Shown one piece after another: positions 13,587 through 39,349 of a stretch of DNA of 44,146 bases; within the stretch, counting starts at the first letter, position 1; the number at the start of each line of letters is the position of its first letter. Both the position numbers and the translations under genes were made by a program. The DNA lies in the NCBI GenBank assembly GCA_029881215.1, contig JAOUNA010000006.1, positions 1-44,146 on the forward strand, given 5' to 3'. The notes beneath the pieces are model-generated. The model made no database searches and had not been told where the DNA came from. It worked only from the letters and a program-made list of their open reading frames with translations. Source of the DNA: Myxococcales bacterium (GTDB lineage Bacteria > Myxococcota_A > UBA9160 > SMWR01).

Positions 13587-13602
13587 AGCGGGGCGCCCCG
13601 CT
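13587..13602. terminator. palindromic hairpin between convergent pilin and membrane-protein genes
   Basis: AGCGGGGCGCCCCGCT is a perfect 16-base palindrome in the 28-base gap between two convergent stops, overlapping the stop of the minus-strand gene. It could serve as a bidirectional terminator. It lacks a T-tract. Confidence 0.4.
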
Positions 13603-14320
13603 ACCTGGCGCGGGAGCGCAGCGCGTCGCGGTGGCGCTGGATGTAGTCGAGCGACGCGCGGCCCCGCGCGGTGTTCTCGGCCGGAAAGATCCTCGACCAC
13701 AGGCGATCGAACAGGCCGTCGTGGTAGTAGTAGCGGAACCAGGTCTTGCGCACGAAGAACTCGACCACGGTGATGCCGATCATGCAGGCATAGATCAGGC
13801 CGCCGCTGGTCGCCCGCCACCAATCGGGCAGATCGGCGACCGCCAGCGCCGCAATCATCAGGGCGCTCGCCGCGAAGAAGGCGACCCAGACCCCGGTGAC
13901 CTTGCGGCAATACGAGCGGATGAAGAGAGGGATTGCGGGCACCAGATAGCGCGCGCCGCGCTCGATGAGCGAGTCGGGGGCGCGCAGGCTGGACGCGAAG
14001 ATTCCGGCGAGCGTCAGATAGACGAGCGCCGGCACGAGGCGCAGGTAGATCTGCTCGTTCGTGACCGCCGCGAGCATGAGCAGCACGGGGAAGCCCAGCA
14101 CCGGCGCGGCCTCGAGCGCGACCGCGCGCACCGACGTGCGACCGGGCAGGGCGAGGGAGAGTGCCGCGAGCCCCGCCAGCGCCGAGGCCACCGCGCGCAC
14201 GCCGAAGCGCTCGAGAACGGCATCGAGGACGTACGGGTAGGCAATGATCGCGGTTCCGATCGCGAGGGCGATCCCAGAGACCACCAGCCAGTTGCGCGCG
14301 CGCTCAGCCGAGGGAGGCAT
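13601..14320 (-). CDS. COG4648-like membrane protein of aryl-polyene loci (copy 1)
   Basis: The 239-residue protein has about six hydrophobic segments, followed by the motif FIRSYCRKVTGVWVAFF (about residues 130-147), two more segments, and a basic cytoplasmic tail with FVRKTWFRYYYHDG and FPAENTARGRASLDYI. This is the pattern of the COG4648 predicted membrane protein commonly found in APE gene clusters. Its role there is unproven; support of glycolipid transfer or export at the inner membrane is a guess. It has a clear paralogue at 35313-36044 sharing YCRKVT, VRK.WFR and FPAE.TA. It is the last gene of the minus-strand operon that starts at 20094. Confidence 0.75.
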   Translation of the reverse strand: MPPSAERARNWLVVSGIALAIGTAIIAYPYVLDAVLERFGVRAVASALAGLAALSLALPGRTSVRAVALEAAPVLGFPVLLMLAAVTNEQIYLRLVPALVYLTLAGIFASSLRAPDSLIERGARYLVPAIPLFIRSYCRKVTGVWVAFFAASALMIAALAVADLPDWWRATSGGLIYACMIGITVVEFFVRKTWFRYYYHDGLFDRLWSRIFPAENTARGRASLDYIQRHRDALRSRAR

Positions 14321-14362
14321 CGCACCGCCTCGCAGCCTTGCCCCCGCGCGGCGGTCGAGGGC

Positions 14363-15115
14363 TCACAGCAGGCCGCCGTTCACCGACAGAACCTGAGCCG
14401 TGATGTAGGACGCGCCCTCGGAGAACAGGAAGGAAACGGCGGACGCGACATCCTCGGGTGTCCCGAGCCGGCGCAGGGGCACGCCCGCCGCCAGGGCCGT
14501 GCGATCCGCGCCCTCGAGCATCTCGGTGTCGATCCATCCGGGGGCCACGCAGTTCACCGTGACCTGTCGTTTGGCGAGCTCCAGCGCCAGCGACTTGGTG
14601 GCGGCGATGATGCCCGCTTTGGATGCCGCGTAGTTCACCTGCCCGCGGTTGCCCGTGATTCCGGCCAGCGAAGAGAGGGTCACGATGCGCCCTCCGCTGC
14701 GCAGCCGCAGCATCGGAAGCACGAGCAATCGGAGGACGTTGTAGAAGCCGTCGAGGTTCGTGCGCAGAACCCGATCCCAGGCCTGCTCGGAGAGACCGGG
14801 GAAGGGCCCGTCCTGGTGGATGCCGGCGTTGAGCACCACGCCCCAGTAGGCACCGTGGGCATCGACGTCGGCTCCGATCGCATCCGCGCAGGCCTGGCGA
14901 TCGGCCAGGTCGAAGCTGAGCAGAGAGGCGCGACGTCCGATCGCCGCAACTTCGGCGGCGGTCTCGCCGGCCTCTGCCTTCCCTCGCAGATAGGAGAGCG
15001 CCAGATCGTAGCCATCGCGCGCCAGCGCGATGGCGATGGCGCGCCCGATTCCGCGGCTCGCACCCGTGACGAGCACGCGGCGCGGTGCCGCGCCGGCTTC
15101 CACCTTGCCAGTCAT
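14363..15115 (-). CDS. 3-oxoacyl-ACP reductase (FabG/ApeQ-like SDR)
   Basis: The 250-residue short-chain dehydrogenase has VLVTGASRGIGRAIAIALA (NADPH-binding), NAGIHQDGPF, the catalytic Ser in TLSSLAGITG, Tyr and Lys in NYAASKAG, and a C-terminal VNGGLL as in FabG. It would reduce beta-ketoacyl-ACP intermediates during polyene chain growth, the ApeQ role. The start is ATG 15115, overlapping the dehydratase stop as ATGA, so expression is coupled. The neighbouring genes supply the dehydration step. Confidence 0.9.
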   Translation of the reverse strand: MTGKVEAGAAPRRVLVTGASRGIGRAIAIALARDGYDLALSYLRGKAEAGETAAEVAAIGRRASLLSFDLADRQACADAIGADVDAHGAYWGVVLNAGIHQDGPFPGLSEQAWDRVLRTNLDGFYNVLRLLVLPMLRLRSGGRIVTLSSLAGITGNRGQVNYAASKAGIIAATKSLALELAKRQVTVNCVAPGWIDTEMLEGADRTALAAGVPLRRLGTPEDVASAVSFLFSEGASYITAQVLSVNGGLL

Positions 15116-15570
15116 GACGGCAGCTCCTCGAGCGAATCCCCTGGCGCCACGGTGTAGAGGCTCAGGCGTCCCTGCGCCAGCGTGCGGCCGCTCGCCTCGT
15201 CGCGCACGGCACACTCGAAGAGCACCAGGCCGGACTCGCCCCGCTGGTGCCGCGCGGAGACGCGCAGGCGCTGCCCGGCCGGGAAGCGGTCGACCGCGAG
15301 CCGGAGCCGGCGCGATCCGAGCAGCAGCGCCGCCTCCGGCGCGCGCCAGCCGGCGCGCGCCGCGAGTCCGGCGTGGACCGCGGCGCACTGCGCCATGTAC
15401 TCGAGCGCGACGAACGCGGGCACCGAGCCGTCCGCCCCGCGGAAGAGCCCGCTGCCTTCGAGATCGACCGAGCAGATCGTCTCGGCCGGCGAATGCGTCA
15501 GCACCGCGCCCAGCAGCCGCATGGGACCCTGGTGCGGCGCGAGCGCCGCGACATCCGGAAAGCTGCCCAT
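15112..15570 (-). CDS. ApeP-like hotdog 3-hydroxyacyl-ACP dehydratase
   Basis: The 152-residue hotdog-fold protein resembles the ApeP/COG4706 dehydratases of APE loci: LAPHQGPMRLLGAV near the N-terminus (the conserved His), GSVPAFVALEYMAQCAAVHAGL on the hot-dog helix (with Glu) and RLRLAVDRFPAGQRL. ApeP forms a heterodimer with ApeI in characterised systems. Here the ApeI-like partner is the C-terminal domain of the ligase fusion at 17254-19059. ATG 15570 is chosen because it follows the upstream stop by two bases; an in-frame start further up would overlap that gene. It is coupled to the ketoreductase by ATGA. Confidence 0.82.
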   Translation of the reverse strand: MGSFPDVAALAPHQGPMRLLGAVLTHSPAETICSVDLEGSGLFRGADGSVPAFVALEYMAQCAAVHAGLAARAGWRAPEAALLLGSRRLRLAVDRFPAGQRLRVSARHQRGESGLVLFECAVRDEASGRTLAQGRLSLYTVAPGDSLEELPS

Positions 15571-15572
15571 GG

Positions 15573-16520
15573 CTACGCGTCGTTCTCCCAGAAATCGTAG
15601 AAGTTGAACCACTGCAACGGATGCTCGAGACAGGTGCTTTCGAGCAGGGCGGCGTAGCGCTCGAGCAGCGCGCGCGCGCGCTGCTCCTGCTCGGAGCGCG
15701 GCACGCGTTGCGCCGGAGCGAGAGGCCGGAGAATGGTCTCGTAGCGGGCGTTGCCGCGACGCACGCAGAGCGTGAGGAGAACGGGACAGTCGAGGACGCC
15801 CGCCATCTGGAAGGGCGTCAGGGGGAAACGGGCGCTGCGGCCGAGGAAGGGAGCCTCGGCGTTCCGCGCCGTCTTCCCCGGTGCCGCCCGATCGGCGAGG
15901 ATGACCACGAACTCGCCGCGCTGAATGCAGGAGCGGATTTCGAAGGCGGCGCGCACGGAGGTGGGGTCGATGTCGATGGCGCGCACCTTCGCATCCGGGC
16001 TCAGTGATTCGAAGAACGCATTGATGCGCTCGGCGTTGCCGAAGAATACGACCACGTTGACGACCAGCGCGTATTTCCTGGAGAGGAACCAGAGCATGTC
16101 GATGTTGCCGAGATGCGCGCCGAGCAGGAGCGCCCCGCGTCCGCTGCGCACCAGCTCGAAGATGCGCCCACTTCCGTCGTGCTCCACGTGCATGTTCTCG
16201 AGGGCGCCGCTCCAGATCGAGAAACGGTCGTAGAGGCTCACGGCGAACTCGTGCATGTGGCGCAGCACCGCGCGCGCGTTCGGCTCGCCGCCGAGCGCGG
16301 CGCGCCCAGCCGGCGAGGTGGTGAGCTGCTCGAGATAACGGCGCGATGCGCGCCGCGCGCGCCCATCGCGCAGGAAGAAGTACAGGACCGCCGGCCAGAT
16401 GAGCAGCAGGCCGAAGCGGCGTCCCACCATGCGGTGCAGGCGCGCGCCGAAGCGCAGCGCTTGCATCGTTCCGATCTCGGCCACATCCGCCCAGCGGCCC
16501 GCGCTCATCGTGTGTGCCAT
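15573..16520 (-). CDS. LpxL/HtrB-type lysophospholipid acyltransferase (copy 1)
   Basis: The 315-residue protein has an N-terminal membrane anchor (LLLIWPAVLYFFL), the acyltransferase motif GAHLGNIDML (HX4D) and ILADRAAPGKTARN downstream. It ends with WFNFYDFW, typical of LpxL-like proteins in APE clusters. Family members move an acyl chain from ACP to a membrane-bound lipid or sugar at the inner membrane. It follows the GT2 gene and overlaps it by 16 bases; the two functions are often found together in APE loci and may attach the polyene to a lipid or sugar anchor. ATG 16520 has GGAGG 6 nt upstream and is preferred over ATG 16508. A paralogue lies at 37284-38261. Confidence 0.82.
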   Translation of the reverse strand: MAHTMSAGRWADVAEIGTMQALRFGARLHRMVGRRFGLLLIWPAVLYFFLRDGRARRASRRYLEQLTTSPAGRAALGGEPNARAVLRHMHEFAVSLYDRFSIWSGALENMHVEHDGSGRIFELVRSGRGALLLGAHLGNIDMLWFLSRKYALVVNVVVFFGNAERINAFFESLSPDAKVRAIDIDPTSVRAAFEIRSCIQRGEFVVILADRAAPGKTARNAEAPFLGRSARFPLTPFQMAGVLDCPVLLTLCVRRGNARYETILRPLAPAQRVPRSEQEQRARALLERYAALLESTCLEHPLQWFNFYDFWENDA

Positions 16521-17257
16521 GCGGCGCCTCCGATGCGGCGCGTGAGATGCGCGGCCAGGAGTCCTGGGGCGCCCAGCAGGGCCCGCGCGTAGACGCCGGA
16601 GAGTCTCACGTTGTCGCGCAGCATGTCGAAGTGGGACAGGCCCTCGCTCCGGTAGATCACGCGGGTCGGCACGCTGCGAATCGCGACCCCTCTCCGCTGC
16701 AGGTGGATCACGAGCTCCGGATCGAACTCCATGTGATCCCCCGTCCGCACCGCGTCGAGCAGCGCCACCGCGCTCGCGAGAGGGATCCCGCGAAATCCGC
16801 ACAGCGGATCCACCACGTCGAAGGAGAGCGTGGCGAGCCACACCATGGCCCGGGAGAGCTGGCGCCCGACCAGCCGGCTGCGCGGCGCGGTGGCGTCGAA
16901 GCGCGGCACGCCGAGTACGAGTGCGTCGGGATCGCTCGCGATGGCATCGAGGAAACGCGGCACGTCCGCTGCGTCGTGCTGGCCATCGGCGTCGAGCTGG
17001 ATCGCGTGGCTGAAGCCGCGCTGCGCAGCGAGTCGATAGCCCGTCTTGAGCGCGGCGCCGCGCCCGCCGTTCCTCTCGCGCCGGTGCACGCTGAGCCAGG
17101 GGTACGCGCGCTCCAGAGCGCGCAGCACCGCGCGCGTCTCCGGGCCGGAGCCGTCGTCGATCACGAGGCACGCGAGCTCGAACCGCTCGAGCTCCCGCGC
17201 GACGCCGCCGATCTCGTCCTTGTGCTCGAAGATCGGGATCAGGAGGCACGGATTCAA
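16505..17257 (-). CDS. family 2 glycosyltransferase
   Basis: The 250-residue GT-A enzyme has CLLIPIFEHKDEIGG at the N-terminus, CLVIDDGSG, NGGRGAALKTGYRLA and the metal-binding DADG in QLDADGQHDAADVP. It then has DVVDPLCGFRGIP and a C-terminal hydrophobic/basic end. The pattern resembles dolichol-phosphate-sugar or APE-cluster GT2 proteins. It may glycosylate the anchor or the aryl head group. The start is TTG 17257, overlapping the ligase TGA as TTGA, with GAGGA about 9 nt upstream. No ATG or GTG exists before the first conserved strand, so the TTG start is well supported. Confidence 0.85.
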   Translation of the reverse strand: MNPCLLIPIFEHKDEIGGVARELERFELACLVIDDGSGPETRAVLRALERAYPWLSVHRRERNGGRGAALKTGYRLAAQRGFSHAIQLDADGQHDAADVPRFLDAIASDPDALVLGVPRFDATAPRSRLVGRQLSRAMVWLATLSFDVVDPLCGFRGIPLASAVALLDAVRTGDHMEFDPELVIHLQRRGVAIRSVPTRVIYRSEGLSHFDMLRDNVRLSGVYARALLGAPGLLAAHLTRRIGGAAWHTR

Positions 17258-19059
17258 GGCGTCTCGTCCTCGGGCGGTCCGAGCAGGCAGCGTCCGGACG
17301 CAAAGGTGCGCTCTGCATCCGCGGCGCGGAAGCGCAGGCGCGTGCGGTCGTCGGCGAGCTCGACGCGCAAGTCGAAGCGCTGGCCGGGACGCAGCACGCT
17401 CGGGAACTTGAGCGCTTCGATCGCCCGCACGCGTGGCGCTTCCCCGAGCAGCTCGGCCGCGGCGCTCCGCATCCAGCGCAGCAGCACCACGCCCGGCACG
17501 ATCGGGGTTCCTGCGAAATGTCCCTCCAGATAGGCGAGCTCGTCGGGCACTTCGAGTCTCTGCTCGATGCAGTTCGGAGTGCGCGTCTCGCGTACCGGAA
17601 TCGGATCGCGGACGCGATCGTCGAAGAGCGCGCGCAGCGCGGCGGCCGGCAGCTTTCCCTGGGCATCGCGCGGCAGCTCGTTCACGAAACGCCAGCGGCG
17701 CGGCAGGAGCACGCGGTCGAAATGTCCGGCGAGGCGCTCTGCCAGCGCGGCGCCAACCGTCCTGCGCTCCTGCGCCTCGAGCACCGCGCGCCCCGCTGCG
17801 CTCGGGACGATCACGCCGTGCACCCGTGGCTCCGATCCGTGCTCGAATACCACGAGGGCGGCCTGGTCGACCCACGCGTGCACCTCGAGCTCGCGCTCCA
17901 TGTCCGGCAGGGAGAGTCGCTTGCCCCCGATCTTCACGATGCGATCGGCGCGCCCGAGCAGCAGGAAGCTGCCGTCGGCGCTGCACTCGATGCGGTCGCC
18001 CATGCTGTAGCGTCGGCGGCCGTCGCCCAGGCTCTCGCCCTCGCTCGCGCAGGGCGACGTCACCACGAGGCGCCCGTCCGGCCCGCTCCGTTCGATCTCC
18101 ACGTGCGGGAAGGGGAGCCAGGACTCGCCGTGCGCGCTGCGCTGCCGAACGGCCACGCCGCCCGTCTCGGTGGAGCCGAGAATCTCGTGGGGTGCGAAAC
18201 CGAGCTGTTCGGCGACGCGCTTGGCGGTCTCCGCGTCGAGGGGGCTTCCGGACGAGAACACCGCTCGACAGGTGGCGCGCACGCTGCTGAGCCCCGTTCC
18301 GGCGGCGACGCGCCGCAGGTGCGCGGGCGTGGAGACGAGCGCGCTGGCCGGGCTCTCCGCCATGCGCGGCAGGAGCTCTTGCGGGTGCAGGAGGTTCTCC
18401 GTCGAAAAGGGGCGGCCGCTGGCGAGCGGCCAGAGCAGCCGGAACAGCAAGCCGTAGATGTGCTGGTGCGGGACGGTGGCGAAGATGCGCGCATCCCCTG
18501 GAAGCAGCGCGCCGAAGATCGCCTCGTGCGCGCTGATTTCATCCTCGAGATGGCGCAGCGTCTTCACGGTACCCTTGCGCGCTCCCGTCGTTCCGGAGCT
18601 GTGCAGCTCGACGAGGGGCGCGTCGCGATCCAGCTCCATCCCGGCGTCTCGCGTCGCTTTCCCGCCTCGCGGCGCCAGGGGTACGAGCCGGCGCACCGCG
18701 TCGCAGGGAATCTCCGCATCCAGCAGCGCACCCGTGACTCCAGCGCCGAGCCGCCGCAGCGTCTCGGGTTGTCGATTCGGCGCGAGGATGGCTGTGCCTC
18801 GCGCACGGGCGAGCGCCAGCAGGCTCACCGCGGCGGCGTAGCTGCTCTCGGTGTAGAGCAACCAGCGCCCGCTGCCCGCGTCGGCGAGCGCCGCCGCCAG
18901 CGCCGAGACGCGCTGCGCGAGATCCGCTCGATCGAATGCCGCACCCGCGCCGAAGGCGACGGGCAGCCTTCCCGCCTGCTCACCGGCGTCGAGCGCGCCG
19001 AAGATCCGGACGGGAGCCGCGCGCGTCTTATACGCGGTTCTCTTCGACGAAGGCGGCAA
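17254..19059 (-). CDS. acyl-AMP ligase fused to ApeI-like hotdog dehydratase
   Basis: The 601-residue product joins two APE functions. Residues about 20-480 form an adenylate-forming ligase: LHSSGTTGARKGTVKTLRH (P-loop), GSTETGGVAVRQ, YSMGDRIECSADG, GRADRIVKIGGKRLSL and the C-terminal catalytic Lys in PRDAQGKLPAAAL. It would activate the aryl starter acid for loading on ACP. Residues about 490-595 form a hotdog domain with YLEGHFAGTPIVPGVVLLRWM and KFPSVLRPGQRFDL, the ApeI/FabA-like dehydratase pattern with catalytic His. TTG 19059 lies inside the upstream ACP gene. No ATG or GTG is found in the first part, so the exact start is uncertain. Confidence 0.83.
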   Translation of the reverse strand: MPPSSKRTAYKTRAAPVRIFGALDAGEQAGRLPVAFGAGAAFDRADLAQRVSALAAALADAGSGRWLLYTESSYAAAVSLLALARARGTAILAPNRQPETLRRLGAGVTGALLDAEIPCDAVRRLVPLAPRGGKATRDAGMELDRDAPLVELHSSGTTGARKGTVKTLRHLEDEISAHEAIFGALLPGDARIFATVPHQHIYGLLFRLLWPLASGRPFSTENLLHPQELLPRMAESPASALVSTPAHLRRVAAGTGLSSVRATCRAVFSSGSPLDAETAKRVAEQLGFAPHEILGSTETGGVAVRQRSAHGESWLPFPHVEIERSGPDGRLVVTSPCASEGESLGDGRRRYSMGDRIECSADGSFLLLGRADRIVKIGGKRLSLPDMERELEVHAWVDQAALVVFEHGSEPRVHGVIVPSAAGRAVLEAQERRTVGAALAERLAGHFDRVLLPRRWRFVNELPRDAQGKLPAAALRALFDDRVRDPIPVRETRTPNCIEQRLEVPDELAYLEGHFAGTPIVPGVVLLRWMRSAAAELLGEAPRVRAIEALKFPSVLRPGQRFDLRVELADDRTRLRFRAADAERTFASGRCLLGPPEDETP

Positions 19060-19294
19060 GGTTGCGAACGGATGCGAAGATCCGTTGGTTCATCTCGGGA
19101 TCGTCGCCGATCTTGACTTCGTAACGCTCTTCCAGGGCCATGGCGAGCTCGAGCGCGTCGATCGAGTCGAGCCCCAATCCTTCGACGAAGAGCGCCGCCT
19201 CGGAATCGATCTCGCCGGGCGTGATGTCCTCCAGGGCGAGTGCGTCGATGATCAGCTCTTTCAGCTCTTGTTCGAGTGCTTCGGTCGTGCCCAA
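19028..19294 (-). CDS. acyl carrier protein 1
   Basis: The 88-residue acidic four-helix protein has the phosphopantetheine site GLGLDSIDALEL, with Ser44 as attachment point, and the ACP helix III end (FASVRNLAAFVEENRV). It sits between a PlsC-like acyltransferase gene and the ligase-dehydratase fusion, so it is the likely carrier for starter loading and chain extension. The start is TTG 19294 with a GGAGGGGG stretch 8-15 nt upstream, inside the preceding acyltransferase gene (34-base overlap). Confidence 0.9.
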   Translation of the reverse strand: MGTTEALEQELKELIIDALALEDITPGEIDSEAALFVEGLGLDSIDALELAMALEERYEVKIGDDPEMNQRIFASVRNLAAFVEENRV

Positions 19295-20094
19295 TCTCCG
19301 GCCCCCTCCTCGAGCCCTTTCGAGATCGATTCGCGCAGTTCTGCGCTCAACCTTCGCGCCGCCAGCGGTGAGGAAACTCCGCTCCCCCGGATCGATTGCG
19401 CCGAGATCGGCTCCCGCAGCCGGACCGTAACATGGATCGGATCGTCGGGCAGATCGTACCACTTCCAGCGCTTCCACAGGGCCGGGGGATCGCAGCGGAT
19501 GACGACCGGGAGCACGTCGCACCCGACGCTGAGCGCAATGCGCGCCGCGCCGCGCTGGAACGGACCCAGGCCGCCGACCGGAGAACGGGTTCCCTCCGGA
19601 AAGACCACCAGCGAACGCCCGCTCCGGAGCCGCTCGCTGCACTCCCGAACCAGCTCCGGCCCCGCGTCGCTTCGCACGTAGCCCGCCGCACGAACCAATC
19701 CGCGCAGCACCGCGTTCCTCGCGCGCACCGGATTCACGATGCAGTCGGCCTGGGGCATCAGGGAACACAGGACGACGAAATCGATCAGGCTGGGGTGGTT
19801 GGCGACGACCAGGTGTGGCCCGTTCCGCTGCAGCGGGTCGATGTCGACGAAGCGCACGCGCACGATGCCCGCCGCGGTCACGATGCGCAGATAGAGCTGG
19901 GCCGCGCGGTGCAGGATGCGCTGTGCCTCGAGATCCGCGGCGCCGCCCCGGCGTCGCGCGCCCGAGCCGAGCCAGCGCGACCCGAACAGCAGCGGCAACA
20001 GGCCCAGCGCGAGCGCGCCGAACACCGCCGCGGCGAACGTCGCTCGAGCGATGCGCCAGAGCGCACGGAGGGGGGGTGTCGTTCGCTGGCTCAT
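19261..20094 (-). CDS. PlsC-like 1-acylglycerol-3-phosphate acyltransferase family protein (copy 1)
   Basis: The 277-residue protein has an N-terminal hydrophobic anchor, the acyltransferase motif VANHPSLIDFV (HX4D), the acceptor motif VVFPEGTRSPVG and downstream PVVIRCDPPALWK. PlsC-like proteins are regular members of APE loci, where they are thought to put the finished acyl chain on a lipid or glycerol acceptor. It is the first gene of a minus-strand operon running to 13601. Its start (ATG 20094) is divergent from the ammonia-lyase gene, 69 bases away. A second copy lies at 38497-39276, again just ahead of an ACP gene. Confidence 0.85.
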   Translation of the reverse strand: MSQRTTPPLRALWRIARATFAAAVFGALALGLLPLLFGSRWLGSGARRRGGAADLEAQRILHRAAQLYLRIVTAAGIVRVRFVDIDPLQRNGPHLVVANHPSLIDFVVLCSLMPQADCIVNPVRARNAVLRGLVRAAGYVRSDAGPELVRECSERLRSGRSLVVFPEGTRSPVGGLGPFQRGAARIALSVGCDVLPVVIRCDPPALWKRWKWYDLPDDPIHVTVRLREPISAQSIRGSGVSSPLAARRLSAELRESISKGLEEGAGDWARPKHSNKS

Positions 20095-20118
20095 CCCCGG
20101 GGGACCAAGAATCGCTCC

Positions 20119-21738: not shown

Positions 21739-21805
21739 CACGGCTGCGGGAAACCAGCGTCGATCTCGAGGTCCCCTTCCACGCTGTCGACCTGAGGAGC
21801 ATCGC

Positions 21806-22510
21806 ATGGCGCGGGCACACTTCTCCTGGAAATCCCGCATGAGATCCGCGATCGCCTGTGCGCTTGGTGCGATTCTCTCGAGCAGCGCCCTCTGCGCGCA
21901 GGCGCAGCTGCACGATGCGTCGCGGTCGCTCACGCTCGAGCAGCTGCTGCGCTCGATGGCCACGAGCGCGGGAGTCTCCGCGCAGTTCGAGGAGAGGAAG
22001 GAGCTCGCCCTGCTGAGCGCGCCTCTCGAGAGCCGCGGACGCCTCTATTTCGAGCCTCCGGATCGCTTCGCGCGCTTCACGACCGGGCCCGCGGTCACCG
22101 CGCTGGTGATCGACGGGGAGCGCGTGCACTTTCGCGAGAGCTCGGACGCCGAAGCGCTCGATCTGTCCGGCAATCCCATGACGCGGGCCTTCGTGGAGAA
22201 TTTCATCGCCCTCTGGAGCGGCGACCGAGAGCGCCTCGAGCGCCTCTACGACGTGACGCTGGCCGGCGATCGCGCACGCTGGGAGCTCTCCCTGGCGCCG
22301 CGCGCGGGTCCGCTGGATCGCTTCATCGAGCGCATCACGCTGCGCGGCAGGGAGGCGGCGCTCACGCAGATGATCGTGCGCGAAACGGACGGCGATCGCA
22401 CCGTGACCGAATTCGCCGCCATGCGGCTCGACCGCGCGTTCAGCGCCGACGAACGCCAACAGATCTTCGCGCGGGGCGTGCCCCTCGACGAGCCCGCCGA
22501 GGCGCGGTGA
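21806..22510 (+). CDS. LolA-like outer-membrane lipoprotein carrier
   Basis: The 234-residue periplasmic protein has a Sec signal peptide (basic N-terminus, hydrophobic core, cut near CAQA/QLHD). The LolA-type body shows SLTLEQLLRSMATSAGVSAQFEERKEL, a beta-rich middle (ESRGRLYFEPPDRF) and QMIVRETDGDRTVTEFAAMRLD. APE loci carry a dedicated LolA-like protein thought to carry the hydrophobic product across the periplasm. The start is ATG 21806 with GAGGAG 7 nt upstream. Its stop overlaps the next start as GTGA, coupling it to the exporter. Confidence 0.85.
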   Translation: MARAHFSWKSRMRSAIACALGAILSSSALCAQAQLHDASRSLTLEQLLRSMATSAGVSAQFEERKELALLSAPLESRGRLYFEPPDRFARFTTGPAVTALVIDGERVHFRESSDAEALDLSGNPMTRAFVENFIALWSGDRERLERLYDVTLAGDRARWELSLAPRAGPLDRFIERITLRGREAALTQMIVRETDGDRTVTEFAAMRLDRAFSADERQQIFARGVPLDEPAEAR

Positions 22511-30385: not shown

Positions 30386-30456
30386 GCAGCCGGCCGCGCG
30401 GGATGGCACATGGAGAGAGTGGCGGAACGGCTGAAGGGGCGGAACATTCTGTGCCC

Positions 30457-31765: not shown

Positions 31766-33301
31766 GTGAGGTTCCACGCCGAAGCCAAGCGGGATCGCTA
31801 CGACGTCGTCGTCGTCGGAGCGGGTGTCGGTGGACTCACCGCGGCGGCGATTCTGGCCCACGCCGGCCGCAGCGTGCTCCTCGTCGAGCGCCACGACCGC
31901 CTCGGGGGCTACGCGCACGCATTCCGGCGCGGGCGCTACCTCTTCGATTCGGCGGTGCACCTGGTGGGAGGCTGTGAGCCGGGACCCTTCGAGGGGAGCG
32001 GGCTCATCCACCAGCTGCTTTCGATTCTCGGCGTCCGCGACCGCTGCGCCTTCGCGCGCATCGATCCGTGCTACACCGCGGTGTATCCCGGATTGAGCGT
32101 GGAGGCGCCCTGCGACTTCGACGAGTTCCTGCGCGCGTACGCGGAGGAATTTCCGTCGGAGCAGAAGGCCCTGCGCCAGTTCCTCCAGGAGTGTCTCAAC
32201 GTCCGCCAGGAGGCGCGTCGCGCCGCACAGCTGGCGAGCGCCTACGACGTGATGAGCTCGCCGGATCGCTTCCCGACGCTGCTTCGCTATCGGCGCGCGA
32301 CGCTCTCGAACGCGCTCGACGCGCATCTCGCCTCGCCCCGGCTCAAGACGGCGCTGGGCTCCCTGTGGCCCTACGTGGGCCTGCCGCCCTCGCGCGCCTC
32401 GTTCCTCTACTACGCGACGATGCTGATGAGCTACATCGCCGACGGCGCCTACTACTGCCGGGGCAGCTTCCAGCGCTTCGCGGATGCGCTCGGCGAGGCG
32501 CTCACGATGCGCGGGGGAGAAGTGCTGCTGCGCAGCCCGGTGCGCCGGATCCGCGTCGAGCGCGGACGGGTGACGGGCATCGTCCTGGAGAACGGTCAGA
32601 GGATCGACGCGCCCCTGGTGATCTCCAACGCAGATGCGCTGCAGACGATCGAAGAGCTGGTGGGGGAGCACGCCTTTCCGGAGCGTTACATGGCCGGCTT
32701 GCGCAGCCTGAAGCCGTCGCTCTCCGCCTTCGTCACCTACCTGGCGGCGGATCTGCCGCTCCCGAGCGCCATCCGCCACCACGAGACGTTCTTCTTTCCC
32801 TCTCTCGATCACGATGAGGCCTTTCGCGACAGTCGCGCGGGCGCTCCGTCGTGGTTGACGATCACGGTGCCGACCCTGGCCGATCCCGACCTGGCGCCGC
32901 ACGGTGTGCACCTGCTCGTGCTCACCACGCTGGCTCCCCATCGCGTGGAGGGGGGCTGGCGGGCGGACAAGGAGCGCATGACGGCGCGCATGCTGGGGCT
33001 CGCCGAGCGCTACGTCGGGGAGGACCTGGGCGGGCGCAGCCGCCTGATCGAGAGCGGCACCCCGCGGACCATGGAGCGCTACACGCGGAACGCGGAGGGC
33101 GCCATCTACGGCTGGGAGCTCTCGCCGGCGCAGGTTGGCCCGGCGCGACCCGGCCCGCGCACGCCGGTCGAGGGGCTGCGCCTGGTGGGACACTGGACCC
33201 AGCCCGGCGGCGGCATCTACGGCGTGGTTTCTTCGGGAATCCAGACGGCGCGCGGCGTGCTGGATGCGCCCGGCGAGACAGCGCCCTGGGACGCCCTCTA
33301 G
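31766..33301 (+). CDS. CrtI-like (phytoene desaturase/carotenoid isomerase family) FAD oxidoreductase
   Basis: The 511-residue protein begins with DVVVVGAGVGGLTAAAILAHAG and VERHDRLGGYAHAFRRG, the CrtI/CrtO-type dinucleotide region. It ends with the carotenoid-oxidoreductase motif LVGHWTQPGGGIYGVVSSGIQTARGVL. Between them are SWLTITVPTLADPD and long helical regions expected for a hydrophobic polyene pocket. Family members desaturate or isomerise polyenes. Here an action on the aryl-polyene chain is likely but inferred; similar genes occur with other polyene pigment clusters. GTG 31766 is the first start before the Rossmann strand. Confidence 0.85.
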   Translation: MRFHAEAKRDRYDVVVVGAGVGGLTAAAILAHAGRSVLLVERHDRLGGYAHAFRRGRYLFDSAVHLVGGCEPGPFEGSGLIHQLLSILGVRDRCAFARIDPCYTAVYPGLSVEAPCDFDEFLRAYAEEFPSEQKALRQFLQECLNVRQEARRAAQLASAYDVMSSPDRFPTLLRYRRATLSNALDAHLASPRLKTALGSLWPYVGLPPSRASFLYYATMLMSYIADGAYYCRGSFQRFADALGEALTMRGGEVLLRSPVRRIRVERGRVTGIVLENGQRIDAPLVISNADALQTIEELVGEHAFPERYMAGLRSLKPSLSAFVTYLAADLPLPSAIRHHETFFFPSLDHDEAFRDSRAGAPSWLTITVPTLADPDLAPHGVHLLVLTTLAPHRVEGGWRADKERMTARMLGLAERYVGEDLGGRSRLIESGTPRTMERYTRNAEGAIYGWELSPAQVGPARPGPRTPVEGLRLVGHWTQPGGGIYGVVSSGIQTARGVLDAPGETAPWDAL

Positions 33302-33344
33302 TCGCGCAGCGAGCGGCCGCGCGCGCTGCGTTTCGCGATTCGGG

Positions 33345-33350
33345 TATCGT
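33345..33350 (+). promoter_or_regulatory. -10-like TATCGT, 8 nt before the KS1 start
   Basis: TATCGT ends 8 nt before ATG 33359, in the 57-base gap before the ketosynthase gene. No Shine-Dalgarno is present. Candidate leaderless promoter for KS1, the CLF-like gene and the COG4648 paralogue. Confidence 0.4.
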
Positions 33351-33358
33351 ATCGAGCC

Positions 33359-34564
33359 ATGACGATCGCGAGCCCCCGCACTGCCTCCTCGCTCGCGGCG
33401 CTGGGGATGGTCAACGCGCTGGGGCGTGACACCGGCGAGATCTGGCGGCGCCTGCTCGCCGCGGATCAGTCCCACTTCCGCCTGCGAGACGACCTGGTCC
33501 CGGAGCGGCGCCTTTGGATCGGCGAGGTGGAGGGCGAGCTGCCCCGCATTCCGGCGCGCCTGCGCCGCTACGCCTGCCGAAACAATGCGCTCACCCTCGC
33601 GGCACTCGAGCAGATCGAGTCCGTGATCGCAGAGGCGATAGCCGCGGTGGGACGCGACCGGGTGGGCGTCGTGATGGGGACGAGCACGTCCGGCGTGAGC
33701 GACGCCGAGGCCGCGATCCGCCATCGCGAGCGCACCGGACGGCTCGCCGAAGAGTTCGACTACGATCAGCTCGAGTTCGGCGGCGCGGCCGGATTCATCG
33801 CCCATCTCCTCGAGATCGAAGGCCCGGCCTACACGATCTCCACCGCCTGCTCCTCGGGTGCGCGCTCCCTCGCGAGCGCGCGCGAGCTGATCGATCTGGG
33901 GATCTGCGACGCCGTCATCGCGGGTGCGACCGACAGCATCTGCGGACTCACCGCCAACGGCTTCTCGGCGCTGCAGGTGGTCGCGGACGGCATCACGAAT
34001 CCGTGCAGCGCGAACCGGGCCGGGCTGACGCTCGGCGAGGGCTCGGCGATCTTTCTGGTGATGCGCGGCGGTCGCGGCGTGCAGCTGCTCGGCGTGGGCG
34101 AGTCGAGCGAGGCGCACCACATGTCCGCGCCGGATCCCGCCGGCCAGGGGGCGGAGCAGGCGATGAGCGCCGCGCTGCGGGATGCAGACATGGCCGCGTC
34201 GGCGATTGCCTACCTCAATCTGCACGGCACCGGCACCTCGCTCAACGACGTCATGGAGTGCGCCGCCATCGGACGCGTCTTCTCCGCGCTGCCGCCCTGC
34301 AGCTCGACGAAGTCGCTGGTGGGGCACACGCTGGGCGCTGCGGGCGCCATGGAGGCCGGCTTCTGCTGGCTCATGCTGCAGGCGATTTGCGCCGGCGTGA
34401 TGCCGCTGATTCCGCACGCCTACGACGGCGTGCGCGACCCGGAGCTGGTGCCCGTCTCGCTGGTGACGCCGGGGCAACAGTGTCCCGCCGGTCCGGTGAT
34501 GACCAACTCCTTCGGCTTCGGCGGCAACAACTGCACGCTCGTGCTCGCGAGTGCTTCGGCATGA
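33359..34564 (+). CDS. beta-ketoacyl synthase 1 (ApeO-like KS)
   Basis: The 401-residue ketosynthase has all three catalytic residues: Cys164 in STACSSGARSL, His in LHGTGTSLND and His in KSLVGHTLGAAGA. It ends with TNSFGFGGNNCTLVL. It is immediately followed by a shorter KS-like gene without catalytic Cys, overlapping as ATGA. This is the arrangement of the ApeO:ApeC KS-CLF pair in characterised aryl-polyene synthases, which extend the starter with malonyl-ACP units. The two probably form a heterodimer. A third KS at 36025-37260 is FabF/ApeR-like. Confidence 0.92.
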   Translation: MTIASPRTASSLAALGMVNALGRDTGEIWRRLLAADQSHFRLRDDLVPERRLWIGEVEGELPRIPARLRRYACRNNALTLAALEQIESVIAEAIAAVGRDRVGVVMGTSTSGVSDAEAAIRHRERTGRLAEEFDYDQLEFGGAAGFIAHLLEIEGPAYTISTACSSGARSLASARELIDLGICDAVIAGATDSICGLTANGFSALQVVADGITNPCSANRAGLTLGEGSAIFLVMRGGRGVQLLGVGESSEAHHMSAPDPAGQGAEQAMSAALRDADMAASAIAYLNLHGTGTSLNDVMECAAIGRVFSALPPCSSTKSLVGHTLGAAGAMEAGFCWLMLQAICAGVMPLIPHAYDGVRDPELVPVSLVTPGQQCPAGPVMTNSFGFGGNNCTLVLASASA

Positions 34565-35295
34565 GGGCCGCGCGCGTGCGGAGCTGGGCCGCGTGGTCGC
34601 CCGGAATCGAGGACCGCGACGCGTGGCGCGCCTGGTGCGAAGAGCCCAAGGAGCTCGCGCGCGAGGGGCGTCCCGCGGCGAACTTCCTGCCCCCGCTGCT
34701 GCGGCGGCGCTGCAGCGGGCTGGCGCGCATCATGCTCAGCGCCGCCTTCGATTGCTGCGAGCCCGAGGTGCGCGCGCAGGTCGCGACGGTGTTCGCGTCG
34801 CGCCACGGCAACATCAACGAGTCGATCGAGCTGCTCGAGCGGCTGGCGCGCGGCCAGGCGCTCTCGCCCACCCGATTCAGTCACTCGGTGCACAACGCGC
34901 AAGCGGGGCTCTACTCGATCGCGGCGGACAATCGCCAGGCCTCGAGCTCCATCGCAGCCCAGGAGGACACCTTCGGCTCGGGCTGGATCGAGGCGCTCAC
35001 GCTGCTCGCACGGGATCCACGCCGGCCCGTGCTGCTGGTGGTGGGCGACGTTCCCCTGGCGGCGACCTTCGCCGCCCTGGTCGACGAGCCCGAGACGTCG
35101 TACGCGCTGGCGCTGCTGCTCGAGGCGGACGCGCCGGGCGTCGGCGTGCGCATCGCGCTCGAGCACGGCGCGCCGCAGGCGCGACGCCCGCGCTGGCCCG
35201 ACGCGCTCGAGTTCCTGCGCTGGTTCCTCTCGGACGCGCCCCGCCTGTCCCTGGCCTGCGGCCGTCGGCGCTGGGTCTGGGAGCGCACGGCGTAG
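34561..35295 (+). CDS. CLF-like, Cys-lacking ketosynthase-related protein (ApeC-like)
   Basis: The 244-residue protein resembles the truncated KS family PF13723 that pairs with ApeO. It shows VFASRHGNINESIELLERLA, LSPTRFSHSVHNAQAGLYSIAA (the place of the KS active Cys is occupied by Ala/Gln), and FGSGWIEALTLLARDPRRPVLLVVGD. As a chain-length-factor-like subunit it would set or stabilise the polyene length. The start is ATG 34561, overlapping the KS1 stop (ATGA), which supports stoichiometric expression. Confidence 0.85.
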   Translation: MRAARVRSWAAWSPGIEDRDAWRAWCEEPKELAREGRPAANFLPPLLRRRCSGLARIMLSAAFDCCEPEVRAQVATVFASRHGNINESIELLERLARGQALSPTRFSHSVHNAQAGLYSIAADNRQASSSIAAQEDTFGSGWIEALTLLARDPRRPVLLVVGDVPLAATFAALVDEPETSYALALLLEADAPGVGVRIALEHGAPQARRPRWPDALEFLRWFLSDAPRLSLACGRRRWVWERTA

Positions 35296-35312
35296 CCCGG
35301 GCGGCTCACGGC

Positions 35313-36044
35313 ATGCGCCGCTCCGACGTTCCGGCAACGCTGCTCCGCTCCGCGCGCGGCGAGGTGGCTCGGGCGCTGCAGGTCGTCTCCTTTCTCGCCT
35401 ATCCGTTCGTGGTCTACCTGGCCTACGCGCGTCTGGGCACGCGCCGCCTCGCGGTCGCATTGCTCGTCGTGTACGGGCTCGCGCTGCTCGCGCGCATCCG
35501 GAAGCGGCGTGTCGATGCCTGGCGCATCGCCCGCCAGCATCTGGGGCTCGTGCTGCTGATCGCCCTGGCGCTCGCCAGCGGCGAGCGCACGCTGCTGCTG
35601 CTCCTGCCCGTGGTGGTGAGCCTCTATCTGCTCTGGACATTCGCCGCGAGTCTGCGCAACGGGCCGCCGATGATCGAGCGGTTTGCCCGGCTGGTGGAAG
35701 AAGATCTCCCGGAGTTCACGCTGCCCTACTGCCGCAAGGTCACGTGGGTGTGGTGCGGGTTCATGGCCTGCAACGCGGTCGTCGCGGGTGTGCTCGCGGT
35801 GGCTGCGCCGCTCGAGTGGTGGGCGCTCTACACCGGCCTGATCTTCTACCTGCTGATGGGCGCGCTCCTCGGCGGGGAATTCGTCGTGCGCAAGCTGTGG
35901 TTTCGCCACTATCAGGCGGGTGCCGCGGATCGGGCGCTGGCCTGGGCGTTTCCCGCCGAGCGGACCGCGAACGGACGGCGCTCACTCGCCTACCAGGCGG
36001 AGCGCGACGCCCGGCGGGCTGCGGCTAGTCGCTCCAGCGCCTGA
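35313..36044 (+). CDS. COG4648-like membrane protein of aryl-polyene loci (copy 2)
   Basis: The 243-residue protein has about six hydrophobic segments and the same landmarks as copy 1: LPYCRKVTWVWCGFM (about residue 138), GGEFVVRKLWFRHYQAG and WAFPAERTANGRRSLAYQ. It shares only these landmark motifs with copy 1, so they are diverged paralogues rather than a recent duplication. The presence of two copies in one locus is unusual. It overlaps the convergent KS3 gene by 20 bases at its 3' end. Confidence 0.72.
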   Translation: MRRSDVPATLLRSARGEVARALQVVSFLAYPFVVYLAYARLGTRRLAVALLVVYGLALLARIRKRRVDAWRIARQHLGLVLLIALALASGERTLLLLLPVVVSLYLLWTFAASLRNGPPMIERFARLVEEDLPEFTLPYCRKVTWVWCGFMACNAVVAGVLAVAAPLEWWALYTGLIFYLLMGALLGGEFVVRKLWFRHYQAGAADRALAWAFPAERTANGRRSLAYQAERDARRAAASRSSA

Positions 36045-37260
36045 ACACCAGCGAGGTGTTCACGCCGCCGAAGGCGAAGTTGTTGCTCATCACGATCTCG
36101 GCGTCGACCGCGCGCGGGGCTCCGCGCACGTAGTCGAGCGGGGCGCAGCGCGGGTCGAGGTCGTCCAGATTGAGCGTCGGAGCCACCCAGCCCTCGCCGA
36201 TCATCTCGAGGCTCATCCAGGCCTCCAGCGCGCCGCAGGCGCCGAGCGTGTGCCCCAGGTGGCCCTTCAACGAGCTGAACGGCACGCGCCCGCCGAACAC
36301 GGCGAAGGTGGCGCTGCTCTCCGCGATGTCGCCGATCACCGTCGCCGTGCCGTGCGCGTTCACGTAGCCGATCTCGTCCGCGCCGACGCCGGCATCGGCG
36401 AGCGCCAGGCGCATCGCCTCCTGCATGGTGTCGGGATGCGGGTTGGTCATGTGCCGCCCGTCGCAGTTGGTGCCGTAGCCGAGCACCTCCGCGCGGATGC
36501 GGGCGCCCCGGCTGCGGGCGTGTTCGAGCGCCTCGAGCACCAGACACCCCGCGCCCTCTCCCACGACGAGGCCGTCTCGGGCCGCATCGAAGGGGCGCGG
36601 CGTGCGCGTCGGCTCGTCGTTGCGCGTGGTGGCGGAGAAGAGGATGTCGAAGACGGCCGCGTCCATTTCGTGCAGCTCCTCCGCGCCTCCGGTCAGCATC
36701 ACGTCTTGTTGGCCGAACTTGATCGCCTCGTAGCCGAATCCGATGCCCTGGCTGCCCGACGTGCAGGCCGTGCACGTCGGGACGATGCGCCCCCGCGTGC
36801 CGATCAGGTTGGCGATGTTCGACGCGCAGGTGTGGCTCATGATCTGCAGGTAGTCGTTTGCGCCGATGCCGCGCAGCGTGCGCTCGATGAACAGCCGGCG
36901 CGCGTAGACGGCGATGGCGGGCGGGCTGCCGGAGCTGGATCCGTAGCTGACCCCCGCGCGGCCCGAAGCGATCACCGCGTGGTCGCGCAGCCCCGCGTCC
37001 TCGAGCGCCAGCTCGGCCGCGCGCGCCGCCATCAGCGAGACGCGCCCCATGGTGCGCGTCTTCTTGCGAGGCCAGCTCTCCGGAGTCGCGAAATCCGCGA
37101 CGCGAGCGCCGAGCTTCGTCTCCAGATCCTCGATGTCCTCCCATTCCGGCACGCGCGCCACCCCCGAGCGGCCCGACTGCAGGGCGTCGCGCACGTGCTT
37201 CCAATCCTGGCCGATGGGGGAGAGGCCAGCCATGCCGGTGATCACGACTCGTCGCGTCAT
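36025..37260 (-). CDS. beta-ketoacyl synthase 3 (FabF/ApeR-like)
   Basis: The 411-residue KS starts VVITGMAGLSPIGQDW and has Cys166 in CTACTSGSQGIGFGYEAI, His303 in NAHGTATVIGD and His337 in KGHLGHTLGACGALEAW. It ends with SNNFAFGGVNTSLVF. This is a complete FabF-like ketosynthase, equivalent to ApeR, which acts as a homodimer. It is the last gene of a minus-strand unit with PlsC 2, ACP3 and LpxL-like 2. The start is ATG 37260. Confidence 0.92.
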   Translation of the reverse strand: MTRRVVITGMAGLSPIGQDWKHVRDALQSGRSGVARVPEWEDIEDLETKLGARVADFATPESWPRKKTRTMGRVSLMAARAAELALEDAGLRDHAVIASGRAGVSYGSSSGSPPAIAVYARRLFIERTLRGIGANDYLQIMSHTCASNIANLIGTRGRIVPTCTACTSGSQGIGFGYEAIKFGQQDVMLTGGAEELHEMDAAVFDILFSATTRNDEPTRTPRPFDAARDGLVVGEGAGCLVLEALEHARSRGARIRAEVLGYGTNCDGRHMTNPHPDTMQEAMRLALADAGVGADEIGYVNAHGTATVIGDIAESSATFAVFGGRVPFSSLKGHLGHTLGACGALEAWMSLEMIGEGWVAPTLNLDDLDPRCAPLDYVRGAPRAVDAEIVMSNNFAFGGVNTSLVFRRWSD

Positions 37261-37283
37261 CTCGTTCCCATTTCAAAGGGAGC

Positions 37284-38261
37284 TCAGGAAGAAGCCTCAT
37301 CTCCCCAGTAGTCGAAGAAATTGAACCACTGGTAGGGATACTTCATGCAGTAATGTTCGAGGCGCTGCGCGTAGGCTGTCAACAGCTCGGATGCGATCTT
37401 CTCGCGTTCCTCCGGCCCGACGGCGGTGCCGTCCGTGAGCAGCTCGGTGAACACGTCGTAGTGCCCCGGTCCGGTGCGACACGCCAACATCAGTAGCACG
37501 GGACAGGCCAGCAGACTCGCCAGGAGGAACGGCGCGCGGGGCAGCTCGACCGTTCCCCCGAGAAAGGGGACGCGGCTGGTGCGGCCTCGGTCGTCCGGAT
37601 CGACCCGATCGGAGAGGATGGACACCAGCTCGCCGCGCCGCACGCACTCGCGAATGCGGAACGTGCTCCAGATGGACTGCGAATCGCTCTCGATGACGTG
37701 CAGCTCGACGTCGGGAGAGAGCTCGCGAAAGATCGTGTTGATGCGCTGGGCGTGCTCCGTGAACATGAGCGCGTGCACGATCCGATGCTGGCGCTCGGCG
37801 AGGAGCCGCAGGGCGTCGAAGCTGCCGAGGTGCGCTCCCAGCACGATGCCCCCGCGCCCTTCCGCGGCGAGCCGGTCGCAGATCTCGTTTCCCTCCACCG
37901 CGTACGCGAAGTCCTGCGTGCGCTCCGCCCAGATCGCCAGGCGATCGAGAATCGAGAGTCCGAAGGCGCGGTAGTGGAGGAAGCTGGCCCACAGGCCCGG
38001 GCGGCGTCCGAGAGCGGCGCGGCCCGCGGGCGTCGCGTCCACGCGTCGCAGGTAGGCGAGGGAGGCGCGCCGCCCGGGGCGATCGGTGAAGAAGAAGTAC
38101 GCCACGATGGCGTGGACGAGCACGACGCCCACCGGGCGTCCGAGGCTGCGGTAGCACCACACCGTGAAGCGCATGCCCCACATGGAGCCCCGCTCGGCGA
38201 TGCGGCTCCAGCGCTTCTGGCGGGATGCTTGGCCCTGCGTCGCGTCCCTAGAGGCGCTCAT
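37284..38261 (-). CDS. LpxL/HtrB-type acyltransferase (copy 2)
   Basis: The 325-residue protein has an N-terminal membrane anchor (VGVVLVHAIVAYFFF), the acyltransferase motif GAHLGSFDALRL (HX4D), ILSDRVDPDDRGRTSR and the terminal PYQWFNFFDYWGD. This ending and the HX4D context match copy 1 (15573-16520). It would transfer an acyl chain, perhaps the aryl polyene or a fatty acyl, to a lipid acceptor in the inner membrane. The start ATG 38261 lies within the ACP3 gene (14-base overlap), so translation is coupled. Confidence 0.8.
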   Translation of the reverse strand: MSASRDATQGQASRQKRWSRIAERGSMWGMRFTVWCYRSLGRPVGVVLVHAIVAYFFFTDRPGRRASLAYLRRVDATPAGRAALGRRPGLWASFLHYRAFGLSILDRLAIWAERTQDFAYAVEGNEICDRLAAEGRGGIVLGAHLGSFDALRLLAERQHRIVHALMFTEHAQRINTIFRELSPDVELHVIESDSQSIWSTFRIRECVRRGELVSILSDRVDPDDRGRTSRVPFLGGTVELPRAPFLLASLLACPVLLMLACRTGPGHYDVFTELLTDGTAVGPEEREKIASELLTAYAQRLEHYCMKYPYQWFNFFDYWGDEASS

Positions 38262-38490
38262 GCACGAAGTCGACGATGTCCTGGATCGTCTCGATCGCCT
38301 TCAGATCCTCTTCCTTGAAGGACAGGCCGGTCTTCTCCTCGAGGCGTATGGACAGGTCGATCGCATCGACGGAGTCGAGATCGAGGTCGTCGACGAGTCG
38401 AGCGTCCGGACGCAGGAATTCTTCGCGGATCTGAAACTGCTGCTTCAGGACGTCCGCCACCCAGTCGAAGATTTCGTTCGCCGCGTGCAT
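38248..38490 (-). CDS. acyl carrier protein 3
   Basis: The 80-residue acidic ACP has LVDDLDLDSVDAIDLSIRLEEK with Ser40 as the attachment site, close to primary-metabolism ACP style. It lies between the PlsC 2 and LpxL 2 genes, repeating the PlsC-ACP order of the first half of the locus. It probably carries the growing polyene or the acyl donor for the transferases. The start is ATG 38490, 6 bases after the PlsC stop. Confidence 0.9.
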   Translation of the reverse strand: MHAANEIFDWVADVLKQQFQIREEFLRPDARLVDDLDLDSVDAIDLSIRLEEKTGLSFKEEDLKAIETIQDIVDFVHERL

Positions 38491-38496
38491 GAATGA

Positions 38497-39276
38497 TCAG
38501 ACGCTCAGAGTTTGCAGTGTTTTCGCGTAGAAGTCACGCAGGGCCCGGGTGACATCGCGGGCGGCGCTGGCACGGGGCTCGCGGTCTCCGACCAGCGAGC
38601 GCGGGTCGAGGACCTCGCCGACCTCGATGCTGAAGCGGAGCTTTTCGTCCGGAACGTCGTACCACTTCTGACCGCGCATCAGCGACGCCGGCTCGCAACG
38701 GATCACGACGGGGAGAATGGGCGCCTGGCTGCTGAGGGCGACGTGTGCCGCGCCGCGCCGGAAGGTTCCCAGCTGTCCCTTCGGGGAGCGCGTACCTTCG
38801 GGAAATAGCAGCACGCGGCGGCCCTGCTGCAGTCGCTCCGCGCAGGCTGCGAGCACGTCCTCACCGAGGTCGTTGGGGATGTAGCCGGCCGACGTCACCA
38901 CGCCGCGCATGAACGGGTTCGACCAGGCCTCCCGCTTCACGACGCAATCGAGCTGGGGCATCAGGCTTCCGAGCATCACGACGTCGAGCAGCGTGGGGTG
39001 GTTGGCCACGATCAGGCGCGCGCTCGGCGCGCGGAGCCGCTCCGCGCCGTGCACGGAGAGTTCGACGAGCCCGAGCAGCTTCATGAAGCGAACGAAGGCG
39101 CGAAACGTCCAGTGCACCAGGCGCTGCACGCGGAACTCTCCCACGCGCGGGTCGCTGGAGCAGCGCTTCGCGGCGGGGTACACGCTGAGTCCGAGGGCAA
39201 CGCCCAGCAGACCGAACAGCGCAAACGCGGCGCCGGTTCCGACGATGCGCCCCCAGCGAGACACGCGTCTCCGCAT
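38497..39276 (-). CDS. PlsC-like acyltransferase (copy 2)
   Basis: The protein has an N-terminal hydrophobic segment (IVGTGAAFALFGLLGVALGL), the acyltransferase motif IVANHPTLLDVVML (HX4D), LLFPEGTRSPKG and LPVVIRCEPASLM, as in copy 1. It is 260 residues long from ATG 39276. ATG 39294 is in frame but lies upstream of the TACGAT hexamer that ends 8 nt before 39276, so 39276 is preferred. It opens the minus-strand unit PlsC 2, ACP3, LpxL 2, KS3 and is divergent from the aldo/keto reductase. Confidence 0.82.
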   Translation of the reverse strand: MRRRVSRWGRIVGTGAAFALFGLLGVALGLSVYPAAKRCSSDPRVGEFRVQRLVHWTFRAFVRFMKLLGLVELSVHGAERLRAPSARLIVANHPTLLDVVMLGSLMPQLDCVVKREAWSNPFMRGVVTSAGYIPNDLGEDVLAACAERLQQGRRVLLFPEGTRSPKGQLGTFRRGAAHVALSSQAPILPVVIRCEPASLMRGQKWYDVPDEKLRFSIEVGEVLDPRSLVGDREPRASAARDVTRALRDFYAKTLQTLSV

Positions 39277-39284
39277 GAGGGGGC

Positions 39285-39290
39285 ATCGTA
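39285..39290 (-). promoter_or_regulatory. -10-like TACGAT, 8 nt before the PlsC 2 start
   Basis: TACGAT (minus strand; 4 of 6 consensus matches) ends 8 nt before ATG 39276. No Shine-Dalgarno lies between. Candidate leaderless promoter of the minus-strand unit. Confidence 0.4.
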
Positions 39291-39349
39291 CCATGGCCCG
39301 GGTCGCGCACCGGGGGCGCCCGCGCAGGCGCGCCGACCGCATGCGCCGC

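Follow-up and report, generated by a model that had tools for sequence, protein, structure and literature searches.

A candidate two-part aryl-polyene lipid cluster in UBA9160-order Myxococcota, with a conserved six-gene module beside a recognisable polyene core

The DNA considered here (the window) is a stretch of 44,146 nucleotides, contig JAOUNA010000006.1 of a Myxococcales bacterium (assembly GCA_029881215.1), which has a G+C content of 71% and comes from a metagenome-assembled genome (MAG) of 3.43 Mb in 375 contigs. Codon-usage gene calling and profile searches counted 26 genes between positions 13601 and 39264, exactly the number of adjacent genes that an earlier note, made from the sequence alone, had estimated. 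As judged from their sequences, these genes are well supported as an aryl-polyene (APE) cluster, and six of them form a conserved module that is linked to APE loci. The cluster is not a product of chance, because the entire gene order and both cluster ends are retained in a related genome (G024); nearly the whole synteny is found in another (G012), and part of it in others. Core genes were identified by comparing the ape proteins of Escherichia coli CFT073 (public record) with the window proteins by blastp and by Pfam and other profile family scans.

Of the 18 E. coli proteins, 14 have a BLAST homologue in the window (ApeR, ApeO, ApeC, ApeQ, ApeP, ApeI, ApeH, ApeJ, ApeG, ApeE, ApeF, ApeD, ApeL and ApeM), ApeN is matched solely through Pfam (DUF3261), and ApeA, ApeB and an intact ApeK have no match among the window proteins. 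The polyene-building part comprises ketosynthases (KS) with a PF13723 chain-length factor (CLF), a ketoreductase (KR), ApeI- and ApeP-type dehydratases, acyl carrier proteins (ACP) and an ApeH-type ligase. The initiating KS is ApeR-like (36025-37245, minus strand; PRK09116, 614 bits, above cut-off; 53% to ApeR), while the elongating, ApeO-like KS (33359-34564, plus; PRK09185 above cut-off; 41% to ApeO) adjoins the ApeC-like CLF (34576-35295, plus; PF13723, 199.9 bits; 30% to ApeC, 1.6e-23), which is the KS:CLF pair expected for APE (PMC8253772). The KR is of the ApeQ/FabG2 type (14363-15115, minus; FabG family above cut-off; 54% to ApeQ). One dehydratase, ApeP, is free-standing (15112-15570, minus; PF22817, 56 bits; 34% to ApeP), and the other, an ApeI-type hotdog domain, is fused C-terminally to the starter AMP-ligase (17254-19059, minus; PF00501 and PF22818; 30% to ApeH, 31% to ApeI). 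Two ACPs are ApeE-like (19028-19294, minus; PF00550; 47% to ApeE) and ApeF-like (38248-38490, minus; PRK05350 above cut-off; 42.5% to ApeF).

Genes for lipid attachment and export are equally recognisable, with counterparts of ApeD, ApeJ, ApeG, ApeL, ApeM and (by Pfam only) ApeN. The functions of ApeJ are divided between a family 2 glycosyltransferase (GT2; 16505-17257, minus; PF00535; 42% to the N-terminal part of ApeJ) and an LpxL-like acyltransferase (15573-16520, minus; PF03279; 29% to the C-terminal part), of which there is a second copy (37284-38183, minus; PF03279; 32% to the same part). Likewise, there are two PlsC-type, ApeD-like acyltransferases (19261-20025 and 38497-39264, both minus; PF01553; 36% and 39% to ApeD) and two COG4648/ApeG-like membrane proteins (13601-14320, minus; 1e-7 to E. 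coli ApeG by blastp, no Pfam hit; and 35313-36044, plus; 42% to ApeG, 7e-17). On the plus strand follow one another a LolA-like carrier (ApeL; 21806-22510, with a real start perhaps at ATG 21839; PF19574/PF03548; 27% to ApeL), an MMPL/RND exporter (ApeM; 22507-24879; PF03176; 27-32% to ApeM), a DUF3261 LolB-like protein (ApeN; 24857-25492; PF11659) and a PEMT/ICMT-like membrane methyltransferase (25489-26007; PF04191), which is found in many relatives and had gone unnamed in the earlier note. All the core, attachment and export families that the note had listed are thus present, down to the GT2, LpxL-, PlsC-, LolA, MMPL, DUF3261 and COG4648 proteins, and its remark that a transcription factor is lacking holds, since none was found among the 26 genes.

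Chain initiation is predicted to depend on an aromatic amino acid ammonia-lyase (20221-21738, plus; PF00221, 515 bits), the sole PF00221 protein found genome-wide and the proposed source of a cinnamate or coumarate starter. This protein scores 410-416 bits against histidine ammonia-lyase (HutH) models with cut-offs above 520, and its 309 bits against the FlxA model, with a cut-off of 700, do not make it an FlxA-type enzyme. The selectivity segment RFH and a second motif, HNQDKVSMG, are kept in nearly all relatives; NQD is the motif of Tyr/Phe-type rather than His-type lyases, and the likely substrate is phenylalanine or tyrosine. A strict search recovered an orthologue in 19 of the 21 module-bearing genomes of the order, the gene is truncated in G027, and no lyase was found in the module carrier G018. 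The counterpart enzyme in flexirubin clusters has been reported as a tyrosine ammonia-lyase (PMC3992019).

The earlier note had also remarked on the absence of a separate ApeK thioesterase, which stands insofar as there is no intact gene, and falls short in that a decayed remnant with an internal deletion lies at 21735-21858 (plus), where it shares bases with the end of the lyase gene and the beginning of lolA. Its N-terminal 21 positions match the ApeK hidden Markov model (HMM; 1.9e-5), and its C-terminal part, TLLLEIPHEIRDRL, in a different frame, resembles that of relatives by eye. An ApeK homologue occupies the place between lyase and lolA in G012, G031, G027, L062 (G083) and G079, and is found in additional module-bearing loci; none was found in that place in G024, G073 and G074. 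The absence of ApeK in the window thus appears to be a loss by internal deletion, which may be genuine or an assembly collapse. We do not regard ApeK as an essential mark of an APE cluster, because E. coli apeK mutants still produce APE acids, which accumulate unattached upon deletion of the gene (PMC8253772).

Six further genes form the module. Four of them, encoding a second AMP-ligase, a flavoprotein, a condensation enzyme and a third ACP, lie on the minus strand, and two, encoding a halogenase-like and a CrtI-like enzyme, diverge from them on the plus strand. The third ACP (30112-30372) has the phosphopantetheine motif EAGLDSL, conserved in 28 sequences. The second ligase (26015-27463; PF00501/PF13193), which brings the AMP-ligases in the cluster to two, has near-invariant pocket segments HHFVVSILLYL and GIIEVGLP (27 sequences); in the near-invariant LLPMAHHFVVSILLYL segment, an alignment by eye places no aspartate at the position used by amino-acid adenylation domains, which makes an alpha-amino acid an improbable substrate. 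The flavoprotein, also unnamed in the earlier note, is a PF12831 FAD-dependent oxidoreductase (27454-28755; 262 bits) with a confident model (predicted local distance difference test, pLDDT, 94.3), for which a fold search gave no substrate information. For the protein encoded at 28764-30089 there was neither a Pfam match nor any hit in a sequence search of the PDB, and structure prediction was needed because these searches gave nothing. The AlphaFold2 model (pLDDT 91.7) was placed by Foldseek in the condensation-domain superfamily, with AzeD from Pseudomonas aeruginosa (8s6l) as top match (E=3e-20, template-modelling (TM) score 0.74). It has the two-lobed fold like that of chloramphenicol acetyltransferase that is common to condensation domains, PapA-like proteins and AzeD, together with the HxxxDG motif, whose H142, D146 and G147 are invariant in 25 sequences.

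The halogenase-like enzyme (30451-31725; PF04820, 95 bits) has PDB relatives that include 8zop (titled 'Halogenase'), CmlS, ChlB4 and the Cytophaga flavoprotein 3nix. Lys83 and a WxWxIP motif (W221, W223, I225 and P226) are invariant in 24 of 24 sequences, and Lys83 is presumably the active-site lysine, judged by the position of this residue in known flavin-dependent halogenases. The enzyme is possibly a halogenating one. The CrtI-family flavin desaturase/isomerase-like enzyme (31766-33301) resembles PDB CrtI 4dgk (9e-26), and with 179.5 bits against a TIGR02734 (crtI_fam) cut-off of 238.1 is a CrtI relative and no curated member of the family. The earlier note was therefore correct about the extra enzymes, including the ligase-ACP-condensation set and the duplicate transferases.

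Other halogenase-like genes occur in these genomes. One of a different type (Halo3) lies elsewhere in the same genome (G000, contig C53, 1240-2450, L085); in relatives, Halo3 genes are flanked by KR and COG4648 genes within the APE core and keep the WxWxIP motif and the lysine. A second extra type (Halo2) adjoins the CLF in G024, G012, G031 and G018. A distant (26%) homologue of the condensation enzyme stands beside a Halo3-like sequence (45-48%), near a secretin gene, in another genome (L121, 3284-5860, on contig C371 of G250), and no APE core was seen in that 9-kb contig.

How widely the module occurs was established from the condensation-like enzyme. Within the order, 21 of the 80 genomes have it, spread over 14 of 44 genera, and so do two more genomes of the class. 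Among 379 sampled genomes of the phylum, just one other (G250) has homologues, distant ones at 26%, and these were rejected as a module since no module genes surround them. A contig scan gave 27 condensation-enzyme loci, one of them titled Candidatus Binatia; eight carriers lie beyond the order and class, and there are about 30 carrier genomes overall. The limits of the module come from mapping every window protein onto these loci. Most order members have the unit inside their APE core or next to it. Its neighbours in L059 and L060 are genes for an amidohydrolase and an HhH-GPD DNA glycosylase, and in L069 an HhH-GPD gene, and these unrelated flanking genes fix its limits on that side; in the same three genomes a CLF, and in some a fuller APE core, is located elsewhere. 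Every one of the 21 order carriers has the PF13723 CLF, compared with 19 of the 59 non-carriers (Fisher p=1.3e-8), and so do six of the eight carriers outside the class. In module-free APE clusters (G011, G060, G048 and G021), ApeK is present, the ApeI-like gene stands on its own and no ammonia-lyase is adjacent. The extra genes are thus no random assembly, and the earlier note's impression of additions that match no described product stands as far as the literature goes and needs amending in that they are not unique to the window. Two loci show possible decay or assembly error: a condensation gene split in two (G079; L087, 12959-14216) and about 4 kb between the condensation gene and the oxidoreductase (L066, 1298-5285).

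We favour, at a probability of roughly 55%, a two-part cluster in which a core makes an aryl-polyene lipid and the module supplies a second unit. That the product is an outer-membrane APE lipid is a strong prediction. The ammonia-lyase would provide a cinnamate- or coumarate-type starter, which the ligase-ApeI fusion would load onto an ACP; the ApeR-like KS would start the chain and the ApeO/ApeC-like KS:CLF pair would extend it, conjugated double bonds being introduced by the KR and the two hotdog dehydratases. The polyene acid would be joined to a lipid by the GT2, LpxL- and PlsC-type transferases, and transport to the outer membrane would involve the MMPL, LolA, DUF3261 and COG4648 proteins. 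Confidence is moderate to weak for the proposal that the module loads, oxidises, halogenates and attaches a second unit: the second ligase would charge the third ACP with an activated carboxylic acid, which the PF12831 flavoprotein would oxidise in its ACP-bound form, the halogenase-like enzyme may halogenate either that acid or the aryl head, and the condensation-fold enzyme would transfer the unit, as ester or amide, to the polyene or its lipid. Desaturation or isomerisation of the polyene by the CrtI-like enzyme is a weak proposal.

Several points tell against this proposal. The cluster is known here from the genes of a MAG alone, and the module is not always whole: in G043, which keeps the condensation enzyme, ACP, halogenase-like and CrtI-like genes, a strict search did not recover the second ligase, and the adjacent halogenase-like gene is missing in G018 and G159. 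In favour of the proposal, the five module proteins compared co-diverge with one another and with both the lyase and the KS (Mantel r between 0.47 and 0.87; 0 of 2000 permutations), but these distance correlations ignore the species tree. As for the enzymes, proteins with the fold of flavin-dependent halogenases can be monooxygenases, and a fold search with the flavoprotein gave no close relative of known function (TM up to about 0.54 in the top 50). AzeD, the structure most similar to the condensation enzyme, carries the title of a dehydratase. The condensation enzyme may therefore form no bond at all, and bond formation is best taken as the default, not a certainty.

The alternative that survives best, which we consider unlikely although it deserves attention, is that the module acts on the polyene itself. 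The second ligase would re-activate a released aryl-polyene acid onto the third ACP, where the flavoenzymes would modify it before the condensation-like enzyme passed it to a lipid or alcohol, which would partly replace ApeK-dependent release. The link of the module to APE rather than other pathways agrees with this, as do the loss of ApeK in the window, its absence between lyase and lolA in three relatives and the unattached acids of the E. coli mutant, but ApeK and module coexist in G012, G031, G027, L062 and G079, the attachment transferases are still there, and the second-ligase pocket would need to fit a very long polyene acid. Clearly less probable is a conventional APE cluster, similar to those for xanthomonadin or flexirubin, that happens to adjoin six genes of an unrelated pathway. 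Halogenases have indeed been described from xanthomonadin-type clusters (PMC3691225, PMC3949708) and ammonia-lyases from those for flexirubin (PMC3992019), and the module stands apart from the core in L059, L060 and L069; against this, it is interleaved within the core in most order members, and the association of carriers with the CLF, inside and outside the order, also speaks against it. Finally, a flexirubin-type pigment with a dialkylresorcinol as second unit, suggested by the lyase start and polyene core, is very improbable, since family scans confined to the 26 genes found no DarA/DarB-like protein and the FlxA and FlxB scores are far under their cut-offs.

A short open reading frame with a pilin-like N-terminus (GFTRAELVIVVGIIGLLAAIAIP) directly precedes the cluster end (13105-13572), and a LuxE-type acyl-protein synthetase adjoining a class III aminotransferase lies further away (65-2490). 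Immediately after the cluster come genes for an aldo/keto reductase, which gave a weak 4Fe-4S match, and for a thiamine pyrophosphate enzyme (39387-42173). In the relatives examined these were not found next to the cluster, and they were rejected as members. Also rejected as parts were a chorismatase, dialkylresorcinol genes and a free-standing hotdog thioesterase, none of which was found in the cluster.

A separable, conserved six-gene module represents a defined and testable extension of APE chemistry in lineages that have no cultures. For Binatota and similar lineages, hitherto regarded from their genomes as carotenoid-making, it provides a further candidate source of pigmentation and a further role for CrtI-like genes.

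How the locus compares with known systems defines what is new. With the E. coli CFT073 APE cluster (apeA-R; PMC8253772), it shares (i) the KS/CLF/KS set, KR, two dehydratases, ligase and two ACPs, and (ii) the glycosyltransferase and acyltransferases, ApeG, LolA, MMPL and DUF3261 proteins. It differs in that ApeA and an ApeB class methyltransferase are not matched and ApeK is broken, in its ammonia-lyase start, ligase-ApeI fusion and separate glycosyltransferase and acyltransferase genes, and in the duplicated acyltransferases and ApeG and the added module. The flexirubin clusters of Chitinophaga pinensis and Flavobacterium johnsoniae (PMC3992019, PMC5932025) also begin with an ammonia-lyase and assemble the polyene by a type II system, whereas the KR in the window, with 256 bits against an FlxB cut-off of 340, falls short of its flexirubin model just as the lyase does (309 against 700 for FlxA). 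Xanthomonadin (Xanthomonas) and arcuflavin (Azoarcus, PMC3949708) clusters share an APE core with a halogenase-like gene, but derive hydroxybenzoate via a chorismatase (XanB2/ArcB), of which family scans found no XanB2-type (3-hydroxybenzoate) example among the 26 genes, the window having an ammonia-lyase instead; arcuflavin adds a dialkylresorcinol where the window has the condensation-enzyme module. Celluxanthene (cex) of Clostridium thermocellum (PMC12144888) also joins an aryl polyene to a second building block, but with an iterative type I polyketide synthase and a tetronate, and has no architecture in common with the window.

Halogenase and ammonia-lyase are each already known separately in APE-type clusters, and no described match was found in the literature (MIBiG and antiSMASH not being covered) for an APE cluster with halogenase and ammonia-lyase, or with halogenase and condensation domain. 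What is new is the ACP-condensation-FAD oxidoreductase-ligase-halogenase-CrtI set. The predicted product would be a conjugated, possibly halogenated APE lipid and would form a separate class next to the APE lipids, the xanthomonadins and the flexirubins. We tentatively propose, at somewhat less than even odds, a third architecture of APE conjugates, in which a portable six-gene module would build a dedicated acyl or aryl unit that is carrier-bound, oxidised and halogenated, and a stand-alone condensation-fold enzyme would join this unit to the polyene, in uncultured UBA9160-order Myxococcota and in other lineages, including the one titled Candidatus Binatia.

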